A stretch of DNA of 64,000 bases from Acidihalobacter ferrooxydans (GTDB lineage: Bacteria; Pseudomonadota; Gammaproteobacteria; DSM-5130; Acidihalobacteraceae), in assembly GCF_001975725.1 (NCBI RefSeq), contig NZ_CP019434.1, forward strand, positions 1,327,041 through 1,391,040, written 5' to 3'. Position numbers and translations under genes: made by a program. The notes under the pieces were generated by a model. It ran no database searches. It was not told where the DNA came from and was given only the letters and a program-made list of their open reading frames with translations. Shown here one piece after another: positions 8,530 to 59,272 of the stretch (the stretch's first letter is position 1; the number at the start of each line of letters is the position of its first letter).

Positions 8530-8692
8530 AACCCGGCTGTTTCATGCGTTCGCGCAGATATCGCGTCGGATACGGGTGTCACAAGGGGCACCGAAGGAGC
8601 GTCGTATCGGTCAATACGGTCGACTGAGGACATAACCCCGTGTGAAATCAACCGGCCCGCGAGATCGGTGGAGATTTGCGAAACCGCCGGGT
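8530..8692 (+). repeat. Family B repeat, copy 1
   Basis: 163-bp element with terminal inverted repeats ACCCGGCTGTTTC and GAAACCGCCGGGT. It has the family core: CACAAGGGG...CGAAGGAGC, CGTATCGGT, CGACTGAGGA, CCCGTGTG, then CCCGCGAGATCGG. Inner CACAAGGGG and CCCGTGTG arms form a second nested hairpin. It fills most of the 364-base gap between the MFS gene and hldE and encodes no plausible protein. Confidence 0.75.
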
Positions 8693-10316: not shown

Positions 10317-11251
10317 TCATCGTCACCGGCGGCGCCGGTTTTATCGGCGCCAACATCGTACAAGCCCTCAACGGGCGCGGCGAAACCGACATACTTGTCG
10401 TTGATGATCTGGAGGACGGCACGAAGTTCGTCAACATCGCCGACCTGCAGATCGCCGACTACATGGATAAGGACGATTTCCTGGCCCGCGTCGAGGCCGG
10501 CCGGGACTTCGGCGCGCAGGCCATTTTTCACGAAGGCGCGTGTTCGGCCACCACCGAGGGGGACGGCCGCTACATGATGCGCAACAACTTCGAATACTCG
10601 AAGACGCTGCTGCACTACTGCCTGGATCACGGCACACAGTATCTCTATGCCTCTTCGGCATCGGTTTACGGCGCCGGCCCGGTGTTCACCGAGGGGCTGG
10701 AGCACGAAAAGCCGCTGAATGTGTACGGCTACTCAAAGTTCCAGTTCGACCAGTACGTGCGCCGTCTGTCCGCGCAGGCGCGCAGTCAGGTGGCGGGTTT
10801 TCGTTACTTCAACGTTTACGGACCGCGCGAGCAGCACAAAGGCTCGATGGCCAGCGTCGCCTTTCATTTCAACAACCAGATCAAAACCGATGGCCGCTGC
10901 CGTCTGTTCGAGGGCACCGATGGCTATGCCAATGGCGGCCAGCAGCGCGATTTCGTCTACGTTGGCGACTGCGTGGCGGTGAACCTGTGGTTCCTCGATC
11001 ACCCAGAAGTGTCCGGAATCTTCAATCTCGGCACCGGCCGCGCGCAGACCTTCAACGACGTGGCCAGTGCCGTGATCGACTGGCACGGTGCGGGCGAGAT
11101 CAAATACGTCCCGTTTCCGGAACATCTCAAGGGGCGTTACCAGAGCTACACTCAGGCCGATATTTCCGCCCTGCGCGCGGCCGGTTACGAAGCGCCATTC
11201 AAGACCGTCGAAGAGGGCACACGGCTTTATCTCGACTGGCTGAACCGCTAG
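10313..11251 (+). CDS. hldD: ADP-L-glycero-D-manno-heptose 6-epimerase
   Basis: 312-residue short-chain-dehydrogenase-type epimerase that inverts C6 of ADP-D,D-heptose to give the LPS core precursor. Visible: Rossmann motif [12 protein letters not shown] at the extreme N terminus, [19 protein letters not shown], and catalytic [13 protein letters not shown]. It follows hldE with a 4-base overlap. The stop codon TAG sits at the left border of a family A repeat. Confidence 0.96.
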
Positions 11252-33403: not shown

Positions 33404-34654
33404 TCAAGGCTTGACGAACAGTTTGCGCGGAAACGGCGCCAGCAGTTCATGGCCGGTTTCCGTCACCACGAAACTTTCCGAAATTTCCACGCCCCAATCA
33501 TCCATCCAGATGCCGGGTATGAGGTGGAACGTCATGCCCGGTTCGAGCACGGAGCGGTCGCCGGGGCGCAGGCTCATGGTGTGTTCGCCCCAGTCAGGCG
33601 GATAGTTCAGGCCCATCGAATAGCCGATCCGCGATTCCTTGACGAGGCCTTTCGGTGCGGTCGCGGCGCGCCAGGCCGCTTCGATGGACTCGCAGGTGGC
33701 GCCGGGTCGCACCGCTTCCAGCGCAGCCTGCACGCCTTCGGCGACGATTTCGGCTGCCGAGCTGAGCCGCTGCGGCGGGGTGCCGAGAAAGACGGTGCGG
33801 GCCATCGGGCAGTGATAGTGATACCGCGCGGCGGCAAGTTCGAGAATGGTGGCCTCGCCCTGAACGAACGGCTTGTCGTTCCAGGTCAGGTGCGCGGTCG
33901 AGGTGCCGCGGCCGGTCGGCAGCATCGGCACGATGGCGGGATAATCGCCGCCGCATTCGCGGGTGCCGCGCATTTGCGCACGGTAGATTTCTCCGACCGC
34001 GTCGCATTGACGGACGCCTGGCTCGACATGCCCGACCGCAACCTTCATCACGCGCTGCATGATCTGCCCGGCCTGGCGCATGTATTCCAGTTCCTGGGGC
34101 GACTTGATCGAGCGCAGGCCGGAGACCAGCCGGGTGACGTCGGTGAAACTGGCGTGAGAGAGTTGGCGACGCAGCACTTCGTAGCCGCGTGCCGAAAAAT
34201 AGTAACTGTCCATGTCCAGGCCGATGCGCGCGTTGTCGAGTTCGCGCTCGCGCAGGATGTGCGCCACGAAGTCCATCGGGTGGCGGTGGTCATGCTGTAC
34301 GTAGCGATCAGAGTAGGAGTAGATGTTGTCCGAGTCGAGGTAGGTGGTTTCCAGGGCGCCGTTGGCGTCGATGCCGCGGCCGATCCAGATCGGTTCCGGT
34401 TCGGCCAGCGCGATGACGACAAGCTGCGGCACATAGAACGACCAGCCGTCATAGCCGGTCAGATAGTTCATGTTGGCCGGATCGAAGACCAGGAAAACCT
34501 CCAGGCCTTGCGCCTTCATCAATGCTTTGGTGCGGCTCACGCGTTCAGCGTATTCCTGCGGGCTGAACGGCAGGGGCCAGAAATTGGCGTGGCGCTGCGG
34601 TGTGTTGACCGGCGGGACGCCGTTTTCGTACTGGTAGGGCAATTCGTTCGTCAT
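33404..34654 (-). CDS. doeA: Ectoine hydrolase
   Basis: 416 residues, creatinase/M24 fold. It matches DoeA/EutD: KALMKAQGLEVFLVFDPANMNYLTGYDGWSFYVPQ, and ELAAARYHYHCPMARTVFLG, where the metal-binding Asp residues of true M24 peptidases are replaced as in creatinase-like enzymes. DoeA opens the ectoine ring to N-acetyl-2,4-diaminobutyrate. ATG 34654 is preferred over an upstream TTG at 34684, though no clear Shine-Dalgarno precedes it. It is last of the minus-strand genes and separated from eutC by a family B repeat. Confidence 0.9.
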   Translation of the reverse strand: MTNELPYQYENGVPPVNTPQRHANFWPLPFSPQEYAERVSRTKALMKAQGLEVFLVFDPANMNYLTGYDGWSFYVPQLVVIALAEPEPIWIGRGIDANGALETTYLDSDNIYSYSDRYVQHDHRHPMDFVAHILRERELDNARIGLDMDSYYFSARGYEVLRRQLSHASFTDVTRLVSGLRSIKSPQELEYMRQAGQIMQRVMKVAVGHVEPGVRQCDAVGEIYRAQMRGTRECGGDYPAIVPMLPTGRGTSTAHLTWNDKPFVQGEATILELAAARYHYHCPMARTVFLGTPPQRLSSAAEIVAEGVQAALEAVRPGATCESIEAAWRAATAPKGLVKESRIGYSMGLNYPPDWGEHTMSLRPGDRSVLEPGMTFHLIPGIWMDDWGVEISESFVVTETGHELLAPFPRKLFVKP

Positions 34655-34689
34655 GGTCGTCGGCTCGTAAGAGGTAGAGTTCAACTTGG

Positions 34690-34850
34690 CCCGAATGTTT
34701 CAAAAATTTGTGCCGGTATCGCGCCGGATATTGTTTTCACAAGGGGATTTCGGAAGGAGCGGCGTATCGGTGATTACGGCCGACTGAGGAAATATCCCTT
34801 GTGGAATCAAGAGACCCGCGAGAGCGGCGGGAATTCGTGAAACATTCGGG
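34690..34850 (+). repeat. Family B repeat, copy 2
   Basis: 161 bp with 11-bp-class inverted ends CCCGAATGTTTC and GAAACATTCGGG. The 42-bp stretch 34763-34804 is identical to 58410-58451. The inner arms CACAAGGGGATTTC and GAAATATCCCTTGTG nest inside the outer ones. It sits between eutC and doeA inside the ectoine island. Confidence 0.9.
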
Positions 34851-34881
34851 TTAGTGATAAGGATGGGCGGGTACGGTGTCC

Positions 34882-35871
34882 TTATGCGTCGATTTCCTGC
34901 CCCAGTCCGGCAGCGTTCGCCAGCGCCAGCGCGTGTGCGGCGATGGCGGTGTCCTGCGCACCTGTGCCGGTCAGGTCGCAGAGTGTGATGTCGCGGTCCG
35001 AGGTGCGTCCGGTGGCATTGCCGCACAGGATGGCGCCGAGTTCGACCGTGGGCGGCGGCGAGCTGAGGCAACCGGCGGCGATCGCTGGGCGCAGTTCGCC
35101 GAGTGTCAGGCTTTGTGCGATGCGGTCGCAGACGATGCGCGTTGCGCGGGCGAGCGCGGCGGGCGCGATCTCGTTCTTGTAAGGTGCGTCCGATCCCATC
35201 GCGGTGACGTGCTGCCCCGCGTGCAGCCAGTCGGCCTGTACGATCGGTTCGCGCGATGGCGTGGTGGTGACCACGATATCGGCTTCGCGCACGACGGCCG
35301 CGGCGCTGTCGCGGGTTTCAACCGGGATGCCCAGGCATTGGGTCATTTCGGCGGCGTAGGCTTGCGCCGCGTCGGCGCGACGGCCCCAGACCAGCACTTT
35401 TTCCAGTGGGCGCACACGCTTGAGCGCTTCGATCTGCAACCGCGCCTGCAAGCCGGTACCGAGTACGCCGGCACTGCGCGCATCGGTTCGTGCCAGCGTC
35501 CGTGCGGCCAGAGCGCCGGCTGCGGCGGTGCGCAGATCGGTGAGATAGCCATTGTCCAGCAGCACGGCTTCCACGCGGCCGGTTTCGGCGCTGAGCACTG
35601 CCATGAAGCCGGACAGGCTGGGCAGCCCGCGTGCCGGATTGTCGAAAAAGCCGGATGAGGCCTTGATGGCCAGTTGCGGGATGCCATCGATATAGGCCGT
35701 CTTGATGTCCACCTCGGCATTGCGCGGCGCGATTTCCAGCGCCAGCACCGGCGGTTGAATGGCGCGCCCTTCACCGAGCGCGCGGAACGCGCGTTCGGCT
35801 GCGTCGATGGCCGCGAGGTCCAGCGGCACGAGGTGGCGCAGTTCGCGCTCGGTGAGAATGCGGACGTTCAT
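34882..35871 (-). CDS. eutC: Ornithine-cyclodeaminase-family protein EutC
   Basis: 329 residues from ATG 35871 (MNVRILTERELRHLVPLDL). The NAD-binding motif GVLGTGLQARLQIEAL and KASSGFFDNP with the cyclodeaminase core identify the OCD/mu-crystallin family, and placement beside eutB and doeA points to ectoine-utilisation EutC, involved with EutA and EutB in converting hydroxyectoine into ectoine-pathway intermediates. A longer upstream frame was rejected as it runs through low-complexity sequence. EutC is separated from eutB by 184 bases. Confidence 0.85.
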   Translation of the reverse strand: MNVRILTERELRHLVPLDLAAIDAAERAFRALGEGRAIQPPVLALEIAPRNAEVDIKTAYIDGIPQLAIKASSGFFDNPARGLPSLSGFMAVLSAETGRVEAVLLDNGYLTDLRTAAAGALAARTLARTDARSAGVLGTGLQARLQIEALKRVRPLEKVLVWGRRADAAQAYAAEMTQCLGIPVETRDSAAAVVREADIVVTTTPSREPIVQADWLHAGQHVTAMGSDAPYKNEIAPAALARATRIVCDRIAQSLTLGELRPAIAAGCLSSPPPTVELGAILCGNATGRTSDRDITLCDLTGTGAQDTAIAAHALALANAAGLGQEIDA

Positions 35872-36055
35872 GGTGCGGAGTCTATCTGATGATGGCGTGT
35901 GCCGATGAAGAAAAGCTCTCGCACACGTTCGCAGTAAACCATATAAAAATAAGCGTAATTTTGCCATGCAAAATGAGACCACTGACGCCGGGCTCGACAC
36001 CGGACAAAGAGCGGTTCGCGTCGAGCAGATCCGCGATCGGCACTCGACAGGCCCC

Positions 36056-37042
36056 TCATTCGACTGATTCTCCATTGACGATGCGGGTGAAGTGTTCCAT
36101 GTCGACGTTGTTGCCGGTGATGATGGTGGCGACGCGCCGTCCGCCGCCGGGCACGCCGCCACGCGCCAGCACAGCCGCGCCGACAGCGGCAGCGCCCTCG
36201 GTTACCAGACGCTCGTGGCAATACAGATCGCGCATGGCGCGGGCTATTTCGGCTTCGGACACCTGTACGACGTCGTCGAGCAGCTGTTGTGCCAGGGCGA
36301 AGGTATAGCGGTTGTCCAACCCGATGCCACCGCCCAGACTGTCGGCCAGCGTCGGTTCTTCGGGCACGTCGACCGGATGCTTCGCGGCCAGACTGGCGAT
36401 CATCGCCGCGCCGCGTTCGGGGCTGACACCGACGATGTGGAGAGCCGGGTTGATGGTCTTGGCGGCCAGCGCTACGCCGGCCAGCAGGCCACCGCCGGAC
36501 AGCGGGATCAGCAGCGTATCCAGCTCCGTGGCGTCTTCGAGCAGTTCCAGGCCGAGCGTGCCTTGCCCGGCGATGACGTCCGGATGGTCGAAGGGCGGGA
36601 TGTAGCCGAGTCCGTGCTCGGAGGCCAGCCGCAGCGCCTCGGTAACGGCGGCATTCTGGTCGCTACCGGCGCGCACCACTGCGGCGCCGCGATCGCGTAC
36701 GGCTTGCGCCTTGTGTTCGGGGACGAGGCTGGACAGGCAGACGGTGCAGGCGACGCCTGCGGCGCGCGCAGCCCAGGCCACGGCGCGGCCGTGGTTGCCG
36801 GTCGAGGCGGTAACGACGCCGCGTTGCAGCGCATCGGCATCGAGACAGAGCAGCGCGTTGGTGGCGCCGCGCAGCTTGAAGCTGCCGCTGGGTTGCAGGG
36901 TTTCGAGTTTGAGCAGCACCTGTTCGGCGCCGCTCAGTTGTGCCAGACGCGGCGCCGGTAACAGGGGCGTGTGCGCCACGCGCCCGCGCAGACGGGCGCG
37001 GGCGCGATAAACGTCGAGCGCGGTGGGCGGTTCAGCTGCCAC
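36056..37042 (-). CDS. eutB: Serine/threonine-dehydratase-like PLP enzyme EutB
   Basis: 328 residues. PLP Lys in QPSGSFKLRGATNALL; STGNHGRAVAWAA and IPLSGGGLLAGVALAAK (glycine-rich phosphate loop) are fold type II dehydratase motifs. Context assigns it to EutB of hydroxyectoine use. I place the start at GTG 37042, overlapping the doeD stop by 11 bases; a much longer frame continues upstream but is antisense-free read-through of the transaminase gene in another frame and unlike the family. Confidence 0.85.
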   Translation of the reverse strand: MAAEPPTALDVYRARARLRGRVAHTPLLPAPRLAQLSGAEQVLLKLETLQPSGSFKLRGATNALLCLDADALQRGVVTASTGNHGRAVAWAARAAGVACTVCLSSLVPEHKAQAVRDRGAAVVRAGSDQNAAVTEALRLASEHGLGYIPPFDHPDVIAGQGTLGLELLEDATELDTLLIPLSGGGLLAGVALAAKTINPALHIVGVSPERGAAMIASLAAKHPVDVPEEPTLADSLGGGIGLDNRYTFALAQQLLDDVVQVSEAEIARAMRDLYCHERLVTEGAAAVGAAVLARGGVPGGGRRVATIITGNNVDMEHFTRIVNGESVE

Positions 37043-38462
37043 GCAGCGCGCCTTTGGCGGCCAGCTCTTCGGTGACCGCGGCCACAGCCTGGCGGGTGGT
37101 GTCGACGATGCGATCCGCTTCGGCGCGGGTGAGCACCAGCGGCGGGGCGAAGCCGAGGATGTCGCCGTGCGGCATGGCACGGGCGAGCACACCCTGGGCG
37201 CGGCAAGCTTCATAGACTCTGACGCCGACTTTGTGCACGGAATCGAAGGGCAGGCGCCTGGCCGGATCGCGGGCGAACTCGACGGCGGCGAGCATGCCGA
37301 CGCCGCGCACTTCGCCGATGATGGGCGAGTCCTTGAGCGCTTCGCGCAGGCTACCGAGCAGGTAGGCGCCTGTATCGCTGGATTTCCTGACCAGATTTTC
37401 GCGCTCGATGATATCGAGATTGGCGAGCGCGGCAGCGGTGCCCAGCGGGTGGGCGGAGTAGGTCCAGCCGTGGCCCAGCGGCCCGAGTTTGTCGGAGCCT
37501 TCTTCGAGCACGCGCCACACGCGCTCGCCGACCAGGACCGCGGACAGCGGCGCATAGGCGCTGGTCAGGCCCTTGGCGAGGGTCATCAGGTCGGGCTCGA
37601 TACCGTATTTTTCACAGCCGAAGGTGGTGCCGATGCGACCGAAGCCGGTGATGACTTCGTCGGCGATCAGCAGAATGTCGTAACGGCGCAGAACGGTCTG
37701 GATTTCTTCCCAATAGCCTTCGGGCGGCGGCACGATGCCGCCGGTGCCGAGCACCGGTTCACCGATGAAGGCGGCGACGGTATCCGGGCCTTCTTCGAGG
37801 ATCATGCGTTCGAGTTCGGCGGCGCAGTGGCGGGAAAACTCGCGTTCGCTCATGCCGTCTTCGTCGCGCCGGTAGTAGTGCGGCGTGAGGGTGTGTTTGA
37901 CCTGCGGCAGCGGCAGGTCGAAAGCTTGGTGGAAGACCGGCAGGCCGGTGAGGCTGCCGGTCATCAGGCCGGAGCCATGATAGGCGCGGTGGCGCGAGAT
38001 GATTTTCTTCTTCGTGCTGCGGCCGAGGATGTTGTTGTAGTACCAGACGAGCTTGATCTGGGTTTCGTTGGCGTCGGAGCCGGACAGGCCGTAGTACACA
38101 CGGCTCATGCCGGGCGGGGCCATGCGGATCAGGCGCTCGGACAGCGCGATCAGAGGTTCGTTGGAGTGGCCGGCGTAGGCGTGGTAATACGCCAGTTCGT
38201 GCGCCTGACGCGAAATCGCGTCGGCGACTTCGCTGCGGCCATAGCCGATGTTGACGCAGTACAGGCCGGCGAAGGCGTCGAGGTATTCCTTGCCGTGCGC
38301 GTCGCGCAGGGTCGCGCCCTGACCGCCGGCGATGATCTGCGGGTTGGACAGGCCGTGTGCGTGCGCCTTGAGATTGGTCGACGGGTGCAGCACGTAGGCG
38401 CGATCGGCGGCTTCGAGTTCGGCGAGCGTATCGTTGGGGATGGATGCAGTATTGAGCGTCAT
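37032..38462 (-). CDS. doeD: Diaminobutyrate transaminase (class III)
   Basis: 476 residues. PLP-binding Lys in LMTLAKGLTSAYAPLSAV, Asp in LLIADEVITGFGRIGTTF, and YYGLSGSDANETQIKL are class III aminotransferase motifs. In the ectoine pathway DoeD moves the amino group of L-2,4-diaminobutyrate to give aspartate semialdehyde. It follows doeC after 24 bases and overlaps eutB. Confidence 0.85.
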   Translation of the reverse strand: MTLNTASIPNDTLAELEAADRAYVLHPSTNLKAHAHGLSNPQIIAGGQGATLRDAHGKEYLDAFAGLYCVNIGYGRSEVADAISRQAHELAYYHAYAGHSNEPLIALSERLIRMAPPGMSRVYYGLSGSDANETQIKLVWYYNNILGRSTKKKIISRHRAYHGSGLMTGSLTGLPVFHQAFDLPLPQVKHTLTPHYYRRDEDGMSEREFSRHCAAELERMILEEGPDTVAAFIGEPVLGTGGIVPPPEGYWEEIQTVLRRYDILLIADEVITGFGRIGTTFGCEKYGIEPDLMTLAKGLTSAYAPLSAVLVGERVWRVLEEGSDKLGPLGHGWTYSAHPLGTAAALANLDIIERENLVRKSSDTGAYLLGSLREALKDSPIIGEVRGVGMLAAVEFARDPARRLPFDSVHKVGVRVYEACRAQGVLARAMPHGDILGFAPPLVLTRAEADRIVDTTRQAVAAVTEELAAKGALRGS

Positions 38463-38486
38463 GGTGTCTCCTCCGGGCAGGTGGGC

Positions 38487-39962
38487 TCAGCCGGGCAGGC
38501 CAAGGCAGATGTATTTCAGTTCGCTGTATTCGTCCAGGCCGTGCCGCGAACCTTCGCGGCCTTGCCCGGATTGTTTGACGCCGCCGAAGGGAATCGGCGG
38601 GCCGGTGAGTTTTGCGCAGTTGATCGCCACCATGCCGTAGTCGAGCGCGTCGCCGAGGCGGGTGGCGCGGCCAAGATCGGCGGTGTAGCAGTACGCGACC
38701 AGGCCGTATTCGGTGTCGTTGGCCAGCCGTACGGCTTCGGCCTCGTCGTCGAACGCCAGCACGGCAGCGACCGGAGAGAAGGTTTCCTCGCGGAACAGGG
38801 CCATGTCCGGGGTGACGTCGGCAACCACCGTGGGGGCGTAGAAATTGCCGCCCAGCGGCTTGCCGCCGGTGAGCACGCGCGCGCCGCGTTCGCGCGCGTC
38901 GCTGACGTGCTGATCAGCCTTGGCGACGGCGCGGGCGTCGATCAGTGGGCCGATATCGGTGTCCGGCTCGAGGCCGTGACCGACGCGCAGCGCGGCGGTG
39001 CGGGCCGCGAAGCGTTCAAGGAAGGCCGCATAGAGCGGGCGCTGTACGAGAATCCGGTTGGCCGCGAGGCAGTCTTCGCCGGAGGTCTGGAACTTGGCCG
39101 CCAGCGCGCCGTCGACGGCAGCGTCGAGATCAACATCGTCGAACACGATGAACGGCGCGTTGCCGCCGAGTTCCAGCGTCAGCCGCTTGACGGTGTCGGC
39201 CGACTGGCGGATCAGGGCCTTGCCGACCTCGGTGGAGCCAGTGAAACTGAGCGCGCGTACGCGGGTGTCGCGCATCAGCGCACTGGCGATGCTGCGACCA
39301 TCGCCGGTGATGACCTGGAATATACCGCCCGGAATGCCGGCCTGCTCGGCCAGCCGAGCCAGCGCCAGCGCGGAGTAGGGCGTTTCGCTGGCCGGACGCA
39401 CGAGCATCGGGCAGCCCGCCGCCAGGGCGGCGGCGGCCTTGCGCGTGACCATGGCCGAGGGAAAGTTCCACGGCGTGATCGCGGCGGTGACGCCGATGGG
39501 CTGGCGCAGCGTGTGCAGGTGACGGCCGGGCAGGTGGCTGGGGATGGTCTCGCCATAGGCGCGGCGGCCTTCTTCGGCGAACCAGCGCACGAAGCTGGCG
39601 GCATAGTCGATTTCGCCGCGCGCCTCGGCCAGCGGTTTGCCTTCTTCCAGCGTCATGATTCGCGCCAGATCCTCGCGGTGCTGGCGCATGCCTGCGTACC
39701 AGGCCAGCAGGCGGTCGGCGCGCTCATCCGGGGTCAGCGCGGCCCATGCGGGCAGGGCTGCGGCGGCGGCATCGATGGCGGTTACGACCGCTGCCTCGCC
39801 GAGTGACGGGATGTGGCCGATGGTTTCGCCCGTGGCGGGATCGGTGACGGCGAGCGTCTCGCGCGCGCCGGTCCAGTGTCCCGCGAGCCAGGCTTGTTCG
39901 CGCCACAAATGAGGCGTGTCGAGTTGGAAGTGCGAGCGTGTTCGTGCGGTTTGCGGGGCCAT
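38487..39962 (-). CDS. doeC: Aldehyde dehydrogenase, aspartate/succinate-semialdehyde type
   Basis: 491 residues. Catalytic Cys in QTSGEDCLAANRI, general-base Glu in LELGGNAPFIV, FTGSTEVGKALI coenzyme loop and ITPWNFPSAMVTRK show an intact NAD(P)-dependent ALDH, sequence type GabD/DoeC. Next to doeD it should oxidise aspartate semialdehyde to aspartate. ATG 39962 has AAGGAGG seven bases upstream. First gene of the minus-strand operon. Confidence 0.85.
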   Translation of the reverse strand: MAPQTARTRSHFQLDTPHLWREQAWLAGHWTGARETLAVTDPATGETIGHIPSLGEAAVVTAIDAAAAALPAWAALTPDERADRLLAWYAGMRQHREDLARIMTLEEGKPLAEARGEIDYAASFVRWFAEEGRRAYGETIPSHLPGRHLHTLRQPIGVTAAITPWNFPSAMVTRKAAAALAAGCPMLVRPASETPYSALALARLAEQAGIPGGIFQVITGDGRSIASALMRDTRVRALSFTGSTEVGKALIRQSADTVKRLTLELGGNAPFIVFDDVDLDAAVDGALAAKFQTSGEDCLAANRILVQRPLYAAFLERFAARTAALRVGHGLEPDTDIGPLIDARAVAKADQHVSDARERGARVLTGGKPLGGNFYAPTVVADVTPDMALFREETFSPVAAVLAFDDEAEAVRLANDTEYGLVAYCYTADLGRATRLGDALDYGMVAINCAKLTGPPIPFGGVKQSGQGREGSRHGLDEYSELKYICLGLPG

Positions 39963-40203
39963 TGTCGCGCCTCCTTCCAGGTGAATGTCCGGTGGTCGTG
40001 CGTTGCGTGTCATCACGTTGCTGAGCCGATAGGTTCAGTATGCATCGCCAGGGGGTGGCGCACGGTCTTTGATGGGGCCGCGGCGCAGTCCATTTGGACT
40101 TTAGTTTGCGGAAAATAAAGTCCTTTATCTGTTTTGAGTGAAAAAATTATTAATTGAATCAATATCCAATCGGAGAATTTCGAAAATTCCCAGGTTTGGT
40201 CAG

Positions 40204-40366
40204 AAGCCGGATATTGCATAAATTCGTGTTGTTCGCACGCCGGATACGGGTTTACGGATCAACTCCGCAGGAGTGGCGTATCGGTAAGTATGGCTGGCTG
40301 TGGAAGCCATCTCTGGTGGGATCTGAAAGCCGGTAACAGTGGTGGCGATTCGTGAAATAGCCGGAT
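40204..40366 (+). repeat. Family B repeat, copy 3 (diverged)
   Basis: Ends AGCCGGATATTGCAT and GTGAAATAGCCGGAT frame a 163-bp copy. The core GGAGTGGCGTATCGGTAAGT and the CATCTCTGGTGGGATCTGAAAGCCGG parts match the other copies, but the inner hairpin is degraded. It lies in the 505-base gap between doeC and the molybdenum enzyme; the first 240 bases of that gap are AT-rich and hold no gene. Confidence 0.6.
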
Positions 40367-40381
40367 CCTGGCGTTCGGTTC

Positions 40382-40416
40382 GTCAAGTCCGGCAGCCTCC
40401 TCCGACTGGCTCCTGG
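40382..40416 (+). repeat. Family A right-end fragment
   Basis: GTCAAGTCCGGCAG followed by GGCTCCTGG resembles the right end of the 61058-61161 copy (CCAAGTCCGGCTG...GCTCCTGG). No left half is visible; it lies 15 bases after family B copy 3. Confidence 0.45.
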
Positions 40417-40468
40417 ACTATCCTTGGGCAGCCACGCCCGTGTTTATTTACAGCAGGAGACTATATCC

Positions 40469-42763
40469 ATGAAGCCGGTATCCGAGACCCCGCCGCAGCG
40501 CACGTTCACGATGACGCATTGGGGTGTCTACGAGCTCGAATCGGCCGGCGGGCGACTGCTGGACGTGAGGCCGTGGCGTGGCGATCCGGCGCCGTCGCCG
40601 ATCGGCCGCTCGCTGCTGGCGGTCGATCACCCGCGCCGCGTTCGTGCGCCGCGGGTCAGCCGGGGCTGGCTGGACGCGCGCGAGGGCCGGCGGCGCGCAC
40701 GACGCGGCAGCACGGAATTCGTCGAAATGCCCTGGCACGAGGTTTTGGATCGGGTCGCCAGCGAGCTAGATCGGGTCCGGCAGACGTGGGGCAACACGGC
40801 CATCTACGCCGGTTCCTACGGCTGGGCCAGCGCCGGGCGTTTCCATCACGCGCAGAGCCAGATGCACCGCTTCATGAACACGCTCGGTGGGTATACCCGT
40901 TCGGTGAACAATTACTCGTTCGCGGCAGCCGACGTGATCGTGCCCCACGTACTCGGCTGTTCGTACCGGTCGCTGCAGGATGAGGCGCCGGATCTGGCCG
41001 AGGTGGCGCGCCACACCGCACTGGTACTCACATTCGGCGGCATTCCGCTCAAGAACGCGCAGATCGAACCCGGCGGACAGGGGCGCCATCTGGTGCGTGA
41101 TCTGCTGCGCACGGCGCATCGGCAGGGTTGCCGCTTCGTCAATGTCTCGCCGCTGCGCGACGATGTTGCGGCGGAGTTGGAGGCCGAGTGGCTGCCGTTG
41201 CGACCCAATACGGATACCGCCCTGATGCTGGGCCTGGCGCACACACTGTATGTCGAAAAACGCTATGACCGCGCTTTCGTGCAGACCTATACCACAGGGT
41301 TCGAGCGTTTCTCGCGCTATCTTCCCGGCACCGACGATGGGCAGCCCAAGGATGCCGCCTGGGCGGCGGCGCTGACAGGCGTGCCGGCGGCACGCATTCG
41401 TGCACTGGCGCGTGAACTGGTCGCCGCGCGCAGTCTGATCAACGTGAGCTGGTCGGTGCAGCGCGCCGATCATGGCGAACAGCCCTACTGGATGGCGATC
41501 ACGCTGGCCGCGATGATCGGGCAAATCGGTCTGCCCGGTGGCGGATTCGCTTTCGGTTATGGCGCGGTCGGCTCCATCGGCAACGGCGTGCCGCGGGTGC
41601 GGATGCCGTCCTTACCCGGCCTGCGCAATCCGGTCGATAGTTACATTCCGGTCGCGCGGATCAGCGACATGCTGCTCAACCCCGGTAGCCGCTTCGCGTA
41701 CAACGGACGCAATCTGGTCTATCCGGACATCCGGCTGGTGTACTGGGTCGGCGGCAATCCCTTCCATCACCATCAGGACCTCAACCGCTTGCTTGAGGCC
41801 TGGCAGCGGCCCGAAACGATTATCGTGCATGAACCGTTCATGACCGCGACAGCGCAACATGCGGACATCGTGCTGCCGGCGACAACGCCGCTGGAGCGCA
41901 ACGATCTCGGCGGCGCATCACAGGATAATGTGCTGGTCGCCATGCGCCGGGCGATTCCGCCGGTAGGTCAGGCGCGCGACGATTACGCGATTTTTTCCGA
42001 TCTGGCGCAACGGCTGGGCGTGCATGAGGCGTTCACCGAAGGGCGTTCGGAAATGGATTGGCTGCGGTATCTCTATGCGCGCCTGCGCGTAACGCATGAC
42101 GATTTGCCCGAATTTGACGTGTTCTGGACGCAGGGCATCCACGAATTCGCCGCGACATCCTCCGCGCACCCGCCGTGCCGGTTGCTGCGGGCGTTTCGCG
42201 AGCAACCGCTGGAGCATCCGCTGGCCACGCCTTCCGGGCGGATCGAAATCGGTTCGGATGTCATCGAGTTGTATGGCTACGCCGATTGCCCGGGTCATCC
42301 GGTCTGGCTGGAACCGGGCGAATGGCTGGGTGGCGCCGAGGCGGTTCATCACCCTCTGCATTTGCTTTCCAACCAGCCGGCGACGCGCCTGCATAGCCAG
42401 TGGGAGCATGGCGTGACGAGCCAGCAAGACAAGATCAACGGCCTGGAGGCGCTGCAGATCAACCCGGGGGATGCACGCGCCCGGGGCGTGCGCGATGGCG
42501 ATGTCGTGCTGGTGCGCAACGCGCGCGGACGCTGTCTGGCCGGGGCGCGGGTGACGGATGCGCTGATGCCGGGCGTTGTTATTTTGCCGACCGGCGCGCC
42601 CTTCGAGCCGGCGGCGCCGGGCGTGCCGGGCAGCCTGGAGTTACGCGGCAATCCGAACGTACTCACGCGCGACCACGGAACGTCGCAGCTTGCGCAGGGG
42701 CCGAGCGCGCAAACCTGCCTGGTGGAAGTCGAGCGTTACGATCCTGCGGCGGACCCGCGCTGA
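40469..42763 (+). CDS. Cytoplasmic molybdopterin oxidoreductase (BisC/TorZ-like)
   Basis: 764 residues. It lacks an N-terminal Fe-S Cys motif and a twin-arginine signal, as in single-subunit cytoplasmic S- or N-oxide reductases. YAGSYGWASAGRFHHAQSQ has the Ser of the BisC/TorA/DMSO reductase group as molybdenum ligand, and LLSNQPATRLHSQWEHG and GSLELRGNPNVLTRDHGTSQLAQGP are typical C-terminal cofactor-binding segments. CAGGAGA (40451-40457) supports ATG 40469. It is transcribed toward a regulator gene and overlaps that gene's 3' end by 28 bases. Its role in ectoine use is not known. Confidence 0.8.
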   Translation: MKPVSETPPQRTFTMTHWGVYELESAGGRLLDVRPWRGDPAPSPIGRSLLAVDHPRRVRAPRVSRGWLDAREGRRRARRGSTEFVEMPWHEVLDRVASELDRVRQTWGNTAIYAGSYGWASAGRFHHAQSQMHRFMNTLGGYTRSVNNYSFAAADVIVPHVLGCSYRSLQDEAPDLAEVARHTALVLTFGGIPLKNAQIEPGGQGRHLVRDLLRTAHRQGCRFVNVSPLRDDVAAELEAEWLPLRPNTDTALMLGLAHTLYVEKRYDRAFVQTYTTGFERFSRYLPGTDDGQPKDAAWAAALTGVPAARIRALARELVAARSLINVSWSVQRADHGEQPYWMAITLAAMIGQIGLPGGGFAFGYGAVGSIGNGVPRVRMPSLPGLRNPVDSYIPVARISDMLLNPGSRFAYNGRNLVYPDIRLVYWVGGNPFHHHQDLNRLLEAWQRPETIIVHEPFMTATAQHADIVLPATTPLERNDLGGASQDNVLVAMRRAIPPVGQARDDYAIFSDLAQRLGVHEAFTEGRSEMDWLRYLYARLRVTHDDLPEFDVFWTQGIHEFAATSSAHPPCRLLRAFREQPLEHPLATPSGRIEIGSDVIELYGYADCPGHPVWLEPGEWLGGAEAVHHPLHLLSNQPATRLHSQWEHGVTSQQDKINGLEALQINPGDARARGVRDGDVVLVRNARGRCLAGARVTDALMPGVVILPTGAPFEPAAPGVPGSLELRGNPNVLTRDHGTSQLAQGPSAQTCLVEVERYDPAADPR

Positions 42764-58336: not shown

Positions 58337-58497
58337 ACCCGAATGTTTTATAACGAGTACTGGTATCGCGCCGGATATTGATTTCACAAGGGGATTTCCG
58401 AAGGAGTGACGTATCGGTGATTACGGCCGACTGAGGAAATATCCCTTGTGGGATCAAGAGACCCGCGAGATCGGCGGTTGTTGTGAAACATTCGGGT
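58337..58497 (+). repeat. Family B repeat, copy 4
   Basis: 161 bp with inverted ends ACCCGAATGTTTTA and TGAAACATTCGGGT. Shares a 42-bp identical core with copy 2. The inner arms CACAAGGGGATTTCC and GGAAATATCCCTTGTG would form a second hairpin. It ends 14 bases before the thioredoxin-fold gene and supplies part of its upstream region. Confidence 0.9.
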
Positions 58498-59122: not shown

Positions 59123-59272
59123 AACCCGGATGTGTCGCGACGACCACCGATCTCGCGGGCCTGTTGCTTCCATCCACAAGGGATGTTTCATCAGGCGGCC
59201 GTCATCACCGATACGCCGCTCTTTCTGTAGTCCCCTGTGAAAACACGATCCAGCGCGAGATTTAAATTGGGT
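59123..59272 (-). repeat. Family B repeat, copy 5 (inverted)
   Basis: 150 bp matching the reverse complement of copies 2 and 4: CCGATCTCGCGGGCCTGTTG, CACAAGGGATGTTTC, GGCGGCCGTCATCACCGATACG and CCCCTGTGAAAA. Ends are TAACCCGGATGT and the less conserved AAATTGGGT. It is the only minus-oriented B copy found. Confidence 0.8.

Follow-up and report, generated by a model that had tools for sequence, protein, structure and literature searches.

A 160-bp MITE-type repeat in Acidihalobacter ferrooxydans with IS1380-type ends and a predicted one-strand RNA fold

We report that a repeat in the genome of Acidihalobacter ferrooxydans is a MITE-type non-autonomous transposon of fixed length (~160 bp), that between species selection acts on the fold of its interior, and that IS1380-type transposases are its probable movers. 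Taken together, our data suggest, with moderate confidence, a MITE that is moved by IS1380 and whose + strand would give an RNA rod serving the element's own propagation.

The stretch of DNA that was analysed (the window) comprises 64,000 nucleotides, positions 1327041-1391040 of the 3.45-Mb chromosome, and contains five copies of one ~160-bp element, three of them full-length, one decayed but end-to-end and one truncated. Five copies had been claimed in the earlier sequence-only reading, and nhmmer with copy 2 as query indeed returned the other four at E-values of 1e-13 to 4e-37. As the + strand of the element we take the orientation whose RNA folds better. The copies, and the main features within copy 2, are:

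8532..8690, + strand: copy 1, full-length, more diverged, 74% identity to copy 2
34690..34850, + strand: copy 2, full-length, flanks TTGG/TTAG
40207..40364, + strand: copy 3, decayed but end-to-end, 66% identity to copy 2
58338..58496, + strand: copy 4, full-length, exact TTCA/TTCA target duplication
59125..59261, - strand: copy 5, truncated, model positions 27-161 only
34690..34702, + strand: left terminal inverted repeat of copy 2, CCCGAATGTTTCA, base of the hairpin
34838..34850, + strand: right terminal inverted repeat of copy 2, TGAAACATTCGGG
34733..34751, + strand: 5' arm of the central stem, GTTTTCACAAGGGGATTTC, strong between-species covariation
34789..34808, + strand: 3' arm of the central stem, GGAAATATCCCTTGTGGAAT
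34753..34759, + strand: GAAGGAG, 5' side of the two tandem-GA internal loops (34753-34754 and 34757-34758), nearly invariant
34781..34787, + strand: CGACTGA, 3' side of the tandem-GA loops (34782-34783 and 34786-34787), nearly invariant

The nested inverted arms noted earlier are real, and with DNA parameters copy 2 folds into one long hairpin (-42.6 kcal/mol vs -22.1 +/- 3.0 for shuffled sequences, z -6.9). The 42 bases shared by copies 2 and 4 (34763-34804 and 58410-58451) are exactly identical; the view that this is more than expected did not hold, as such a run is ordinary for an 89%-identical pair and 29% of the own-genome pairs at 87-91% identity have one as long. The identity is evidence neither for recent spread nor for selection on the fold. 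Copy 2 lies between eutC- and doeA-like genes of an ectoine-degradation cluster (DoeA/EutC-like, succinate-semialdehyde dehydrogenase) that is located at 33404-42763 beside a TorA/BisC-type S/N-oxide reductase, and copy 3 lies between the last two genes of this region.

The terminal inverted repeat (TIR) CCCGRATGTTTCA, with its complement at the other end, is conserved at both ends of the element. A scan of the A. ferrooxydans genome for this TIR (≤3 mismatches) gave 116 forward and 119 reverse matches, compared with 1 + 1 for a reversed-pattern control, and the genome holds about 110 copies of the element. TIR-bearing places were taken as separate stretches, and 101 own-genome copies were examined. 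Both ends are kept in 77 of the 101, while 24 have one end missing, so that random truncation, put forward at the outset as part of what would speak against a selected fold, concerns a minority. Gene positions, assigned with a purpose-built gene finder, place 97 of the 101 copies between genes and one inside an ORF, with three having no gene on one side of the stretch; the coding share of the window is 89%. TIR-to-TIR lengths of 57-98, 231-263 and ~324-330 bp also occur in this genome (e.g. L213, L228, L195, L199 and L016), as do ~210-bp versions in Endozoicomonas; these shorter and longer versions comprise internal deletions, nested insertions and possibly further MITEs that share the ends. 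Another short repeat, GGAGCCTGTCGGACTT, has 7 matches in the window vs 0.4 expected (at 11251, 12810, 20355, 20436, 33235, 40385 and 61060) and is also found in L016, L022, L030, L149, L164, L240 and other stretches, often as inverted pairs ~140 bp apart; in several places it adjoins the 161-bp element or an IS1380.

The element is 158-162 bp long almost throughout and is flanked by a 4-bp target duplication of the type YTAR, mostly TTAA, TTAG or CTAG. Among 102 foreign copies with intact TIRs, the 4-bp flanks are identical in 58 and differ by one base in 34, and YTAR fits 145 of the 204 flanks; for the 77 full-length own copies the flanks are identical in 19 and have one mismatch in 22 (≤1 mismatch in 41). 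L240 contains a copy into which a sister element with different ends has inserted (insert flanks TTAA/TTGA), and joining the flanks restores the outer copy, which aligns across the junction to intact copies. Apart from this nested copy the joined-flank search for empty sites gave noise, and in the congener G001 the sequences flanking the copy 4 site are on different contigs. Any given reading frame stays open in 29 of 130 copies at most; a micro-ORF (AAGGAG as Shine-Dalgarno sequence, then GTG...TGA) was dropped by eye, its start not being conserved between genera. The element is short, high-copy and noncoding, with TIRs, a target duplication and ends shared with an IS, and thereby has all the features of a MITE. 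Of the recent spread suggested earlier, mobility with target duplications stands, whereas the own-genome copies are mostly old, since the median pairwise identity of the full-length ones is 75%. In five foreign copies (Nitrosospira, other loci) the neighbouring gene ends exactly 16 bp inside the element, which is consistent with the TAA of the TIR itself (CCCGGATGTTTCATAA) acting as a new stop codon.

With respect to the mover, the own genome carries an IS1380-family IS of 1570 bp (L147; transposase NF033539, E 1e-120), and both this IS and L149 have the TIR CCCGGATATTTCA with CTAG on both sides. Complete own-genome IS1380-family ISs thus share the TIR and the CTAG duplications of the element, and its ends are shared with the autonomous IS1380 elements at L147, L149, the end of L242, L148 and L146; an Endozoicomonas IS1380 has the same end sequence. 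The TIR types of two more IS1380 elements are met again on other versions of the element: CCCARATAATCCATTAG of the G025 IS1380 matches the ends of the variants L240 and L006 (CCCGGACAATCCATTAGGCG in L240 vs CCCAGATAATCCATTAGACG in the G025 IS), and CCCGCATATTGCA of the G001 IS1380 resembles the ends of L272 (CCCGGACATTGCACA / CCCGGATATTGCACC vs CCCGCATATTGCAYCA in the G001 IS). On account of these recurrences IS1380-type transposases are probable movers. Beyond the ~13-20 terminal bases there is no visible similarity between element and IS, and the interior is not a deleted IS. An IS1380 match of any kind was found in the own genome and in 4 of 13 and 7 of 20 other host genomes, some of the assemblies being drafts. 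As IS1380 is absent or fragmentary in many hosts, another mover or past activity would be needed there, and IS1380 is for this reason a probable mover with the status of a candidate.

A scan of GTDB genomes for both TIRs 118-148 bp apart matched 104 stretches outside the own genome. One group of matches is from Nitrosospira, Sulfuricella, Sulfurimicrobium, Gallionellaceae, Methylotenera and Tepidiphilus, another from Thioalkalivibrio, Halothiobacillus, Hydrogenovibrio, Endozoicomonas, Thiohalomonas and a Rhodanobacteraceae MAG, and a third from two MAGs labelled Myxococcales and Deltaproteobacteria. The copies in the Myxococcales MAG keep the ends, the length and the GA motif and little else; the Deltaproteobacteria match (L058) has an unrelated interior. 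The element occurs in Gamma- and Betaproteobacteria and, in diverged form, in a Myxococcales MAG. With a covariance model it was detected in 24 of 229 genomes from the class to which the window belongs (Gammaproteobacteria), and BLAST against PLSDB and INPHARED gave no match to the element at the sensitivity used. In the Rhodanobacteraceae MAG (L069:4671-6180) two CTAG-flanked copies bracket one gene, similar to a class D beta-lactamase / BlaR1 sensor (NCBIfam, below cut-off); joint movement of gene and copies is without support.

The fold consists of an outer stem, a short TCGC/GCGA helix, the central stem, the two tandem-GA internal loops and a tip hairpin. Aligning the copies and looking for covarying pairs, as the sequence-only reading had proposed, bore out the fold: RNAalifold predicted 36 pairs for 37 diverse copies, 25 of which have compensatory changes on both sides, and none of 500 shuffles reached the observed level. 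In this set 95.2% of the paired cells can pair, compared with 83.4% after shuffling and 38-45% when the partners are slid by 1-3 columns. The structure, fixed beforehand, was then applied to 18 sequences from genomes unused in its derivation (two with ~90% identity to a training row and the remainder with 67-87%). Of their cells 95.7% were paired (37-45% for slid versions), with double changes in 27 of the 36 pairs. The invariant columns are mismatches, GA opposite GA twice with two base pairs between (GAAGGAG / CGACTGA), and the loop bases are kept in >90% of the copies at nearly every position. In several of the held-out sequences both pairs between the GA loops have, in our reading, changed together, e.g. 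to CC/GG in L270. These patterns show between-species selection on the fold of the interior. Rfam gave no match at the gathering threshold for the window and ten loci, and for two elements searched at E≤10 sub-threshold matches only.

For 128 of 130 copies the better fold is that of the + strand RNA, the mean difference being about 16 kcal/mol, and both strands of the element fold stably. Because the copies share ancestry this preference says little by itself, and changes were therefore counted on a tree, the starting Watson-Crick pairs being picked irrespective of strand. In the central stem of foreign lineages 71 Watson-Crick pairs changed to G-U and 17 to A-C (p 5e-9), spread over the columns; the substitutions in these columns are somewhat asymmetric overall (99:70), and measured against this asymmetry a G-U excess remains (p about 2e-5). 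For the 18 unseen sequences the G-U:A-C count is 41:2 for the central stem and 54:7 in total, while the tree count for the outer and tip stems gave no bias of G-U over A-C. G-U pairs in RNA and the mirror-image A-C does not, and the favouring of G-U over A-C points to selection on one strand, most simply as a predicted RNA. Against an RNA it can be said that the + bias could also reflect a one-strand DNA hairpin and that, of the stems, the central one alone shows the G-U bias.

The resident copies of the home genome decay neutrally. On their terminal branches the central stem has 27 changes to G-U, 26 to A-C and 34 others, so that stems broken as often as kept, which had been named beforehand as what would refute selection on the folded form, were found for these copies only. 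Between species such selection is upheld by the covariation, the G-U bias and the invariance of the GA loops; for the own resident copies it falls. We also found no orientation bias to flanking genes (co-directional pairs 25 vs 23 for own and 28 vs 36 for foreign copies). Neutral decay together with the lack of orientation bias implies that the fixed home-genome copies are not kept for a host function, and selection acts on the propagating lineages, with the resident copies excepted.

The reading that we favour has three steps. IS1380-family transposases would bind the TIRs and move the element in trans; the + strand would be read into a ~160-nt RNA rod, and this would be the selected form; and, as the weakest step, the rod may serve the propagation of the element itself, for example if RNA from active copies is bound by a protein through the GA loops. 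Such a rod would be of no service to neighbouring genes, in keeping with the decay and orientation data for the home copies. A further-reaching suggestion, which we make tentatively, is that we are dealing with a transposable non-coding RNA gene for a conserved ~160-nt rod with two tandem-GA motifs, in which selection keeps the RNA product, rather than a protein, for promoting the spread of the element; travel between proteobacteria by exchange of IS1380-type ends belongs to this suggestion and is equally tentative.

The main rival to an RNA of the element's own is a cis effect by which new insertions become less costly, and we regard it as possible, if rather improbable. Here the fold would act on host mRNAs, either as a read-through rod cut by RNase III or by shielding or terminating transcripts, and copies with a good hairpin would be less harmful and hence survive insertion. 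The nearly exclusive intergenic placement (97/101 own copies, one inside an ORF) and the stable folding of both strands fit this, and NEMIS/Correia and ERIC behave in this way (PMC10969869); yet there is no orientation bias to flanking genes, the resident copies decay neutrally and the one-strand G-U bias is left unexplained. Both a DNA hairpin and palindrome repair are less likely than an own RNA or a cis effect. A single-strand DNA hairpin used in one-strand replication or transposition, like integron attC or the ends of IS200/IS605, is unlikely to be the selected form: the pairings also form in a DNA fold (z -6.9), DNA likewise tolerates G-T better than A-C and tandem GA is stable there as well, but the TIR, the 4-bp target duplication and the IS1380 match point to a double-strand DDE transposon, and no G-U bias would come from a cruciform, in which both strands take part. 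That the arms are kept complementary without selection, by template switching or inter-arm conversion, is very improbable, since homogenisation would erase mismatched loops such as GA/GA and ATGA/GGG, the very columns that vary least, and would predict equal G-U and A-C, even if two copies (L061:980-1139 and L144:5195-5354) show arm recombination. In these two the hairpin tip is inverted relative to the arms, presumably by recombination between them, and the tandem-GA loops are lost; both sit in YTAR-type flanks despite the missing loops, a point against the reading that we favour.

Folding bacterial MITEs are already known as a kind, among them NEMIS/Correia, ERIC (RU-1) and YPAL (RU-2) (PMC2229807, PMC10969869). 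The present element has in common with these a length of 100-200 bp, TIRs, many intergenic copies, predicted transcripts with one long stem-loop and a mover acting in trans; it differs from them in its TIR CCCGRATGTTTCA, the YTAR 4-bp duplication, the IS1380-type ends, its fixed tandem-GA architecture and its occurrence in several proteobacterial classes, those families being tabulated with other TIRs and, for Correia and ERIC, with 5'-TA-3' termini (PMC2229807). The first 13-16 bp of the TIR and the CTAG/TTAG target duplication are common to the element and the IS1380 family, whose ISs encode a transposase and are ~1.5-1.6 kb long, whereas the interior of the element is unrelated and has no ORF conserved in frame. 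Like REP/BIME it is a high-copy extragenic palindrome; REPs, however, have a length of 20-40 bp (PMC3733652) and are linked to RAYT tyrosine transposases (PMC2817692), while the element has TIRs, target duplications and a DDE-type partner. With integron attC it shares structure conserved above sequence and strand asymmetry, but unlike attC it is bounded by a TIR and 4-bp target duplications and lies outside cassette arrays. No described family with these ends was found in the open-access literature, and the family is apparently undescribed; ISfinder may list such an IS1380-group MITE.

Bacterial MITEs are usually treated as IS remnants, with their hairpins as a by-product of inverted repeats. 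In the present element the interior has no relation to the IS, the shape is kept over several classes, and the evolution is RNA-like on one strand while fixed copies rot. The element gives a defined putative RNA family with a probable mover, IS1380, and with ends that change with the IS1380 of the host, and as a result the claims of mobility and of an RNA are both directly testable. It thus offers a testable case that some MITEs may carry an RNA needed for their own spread.
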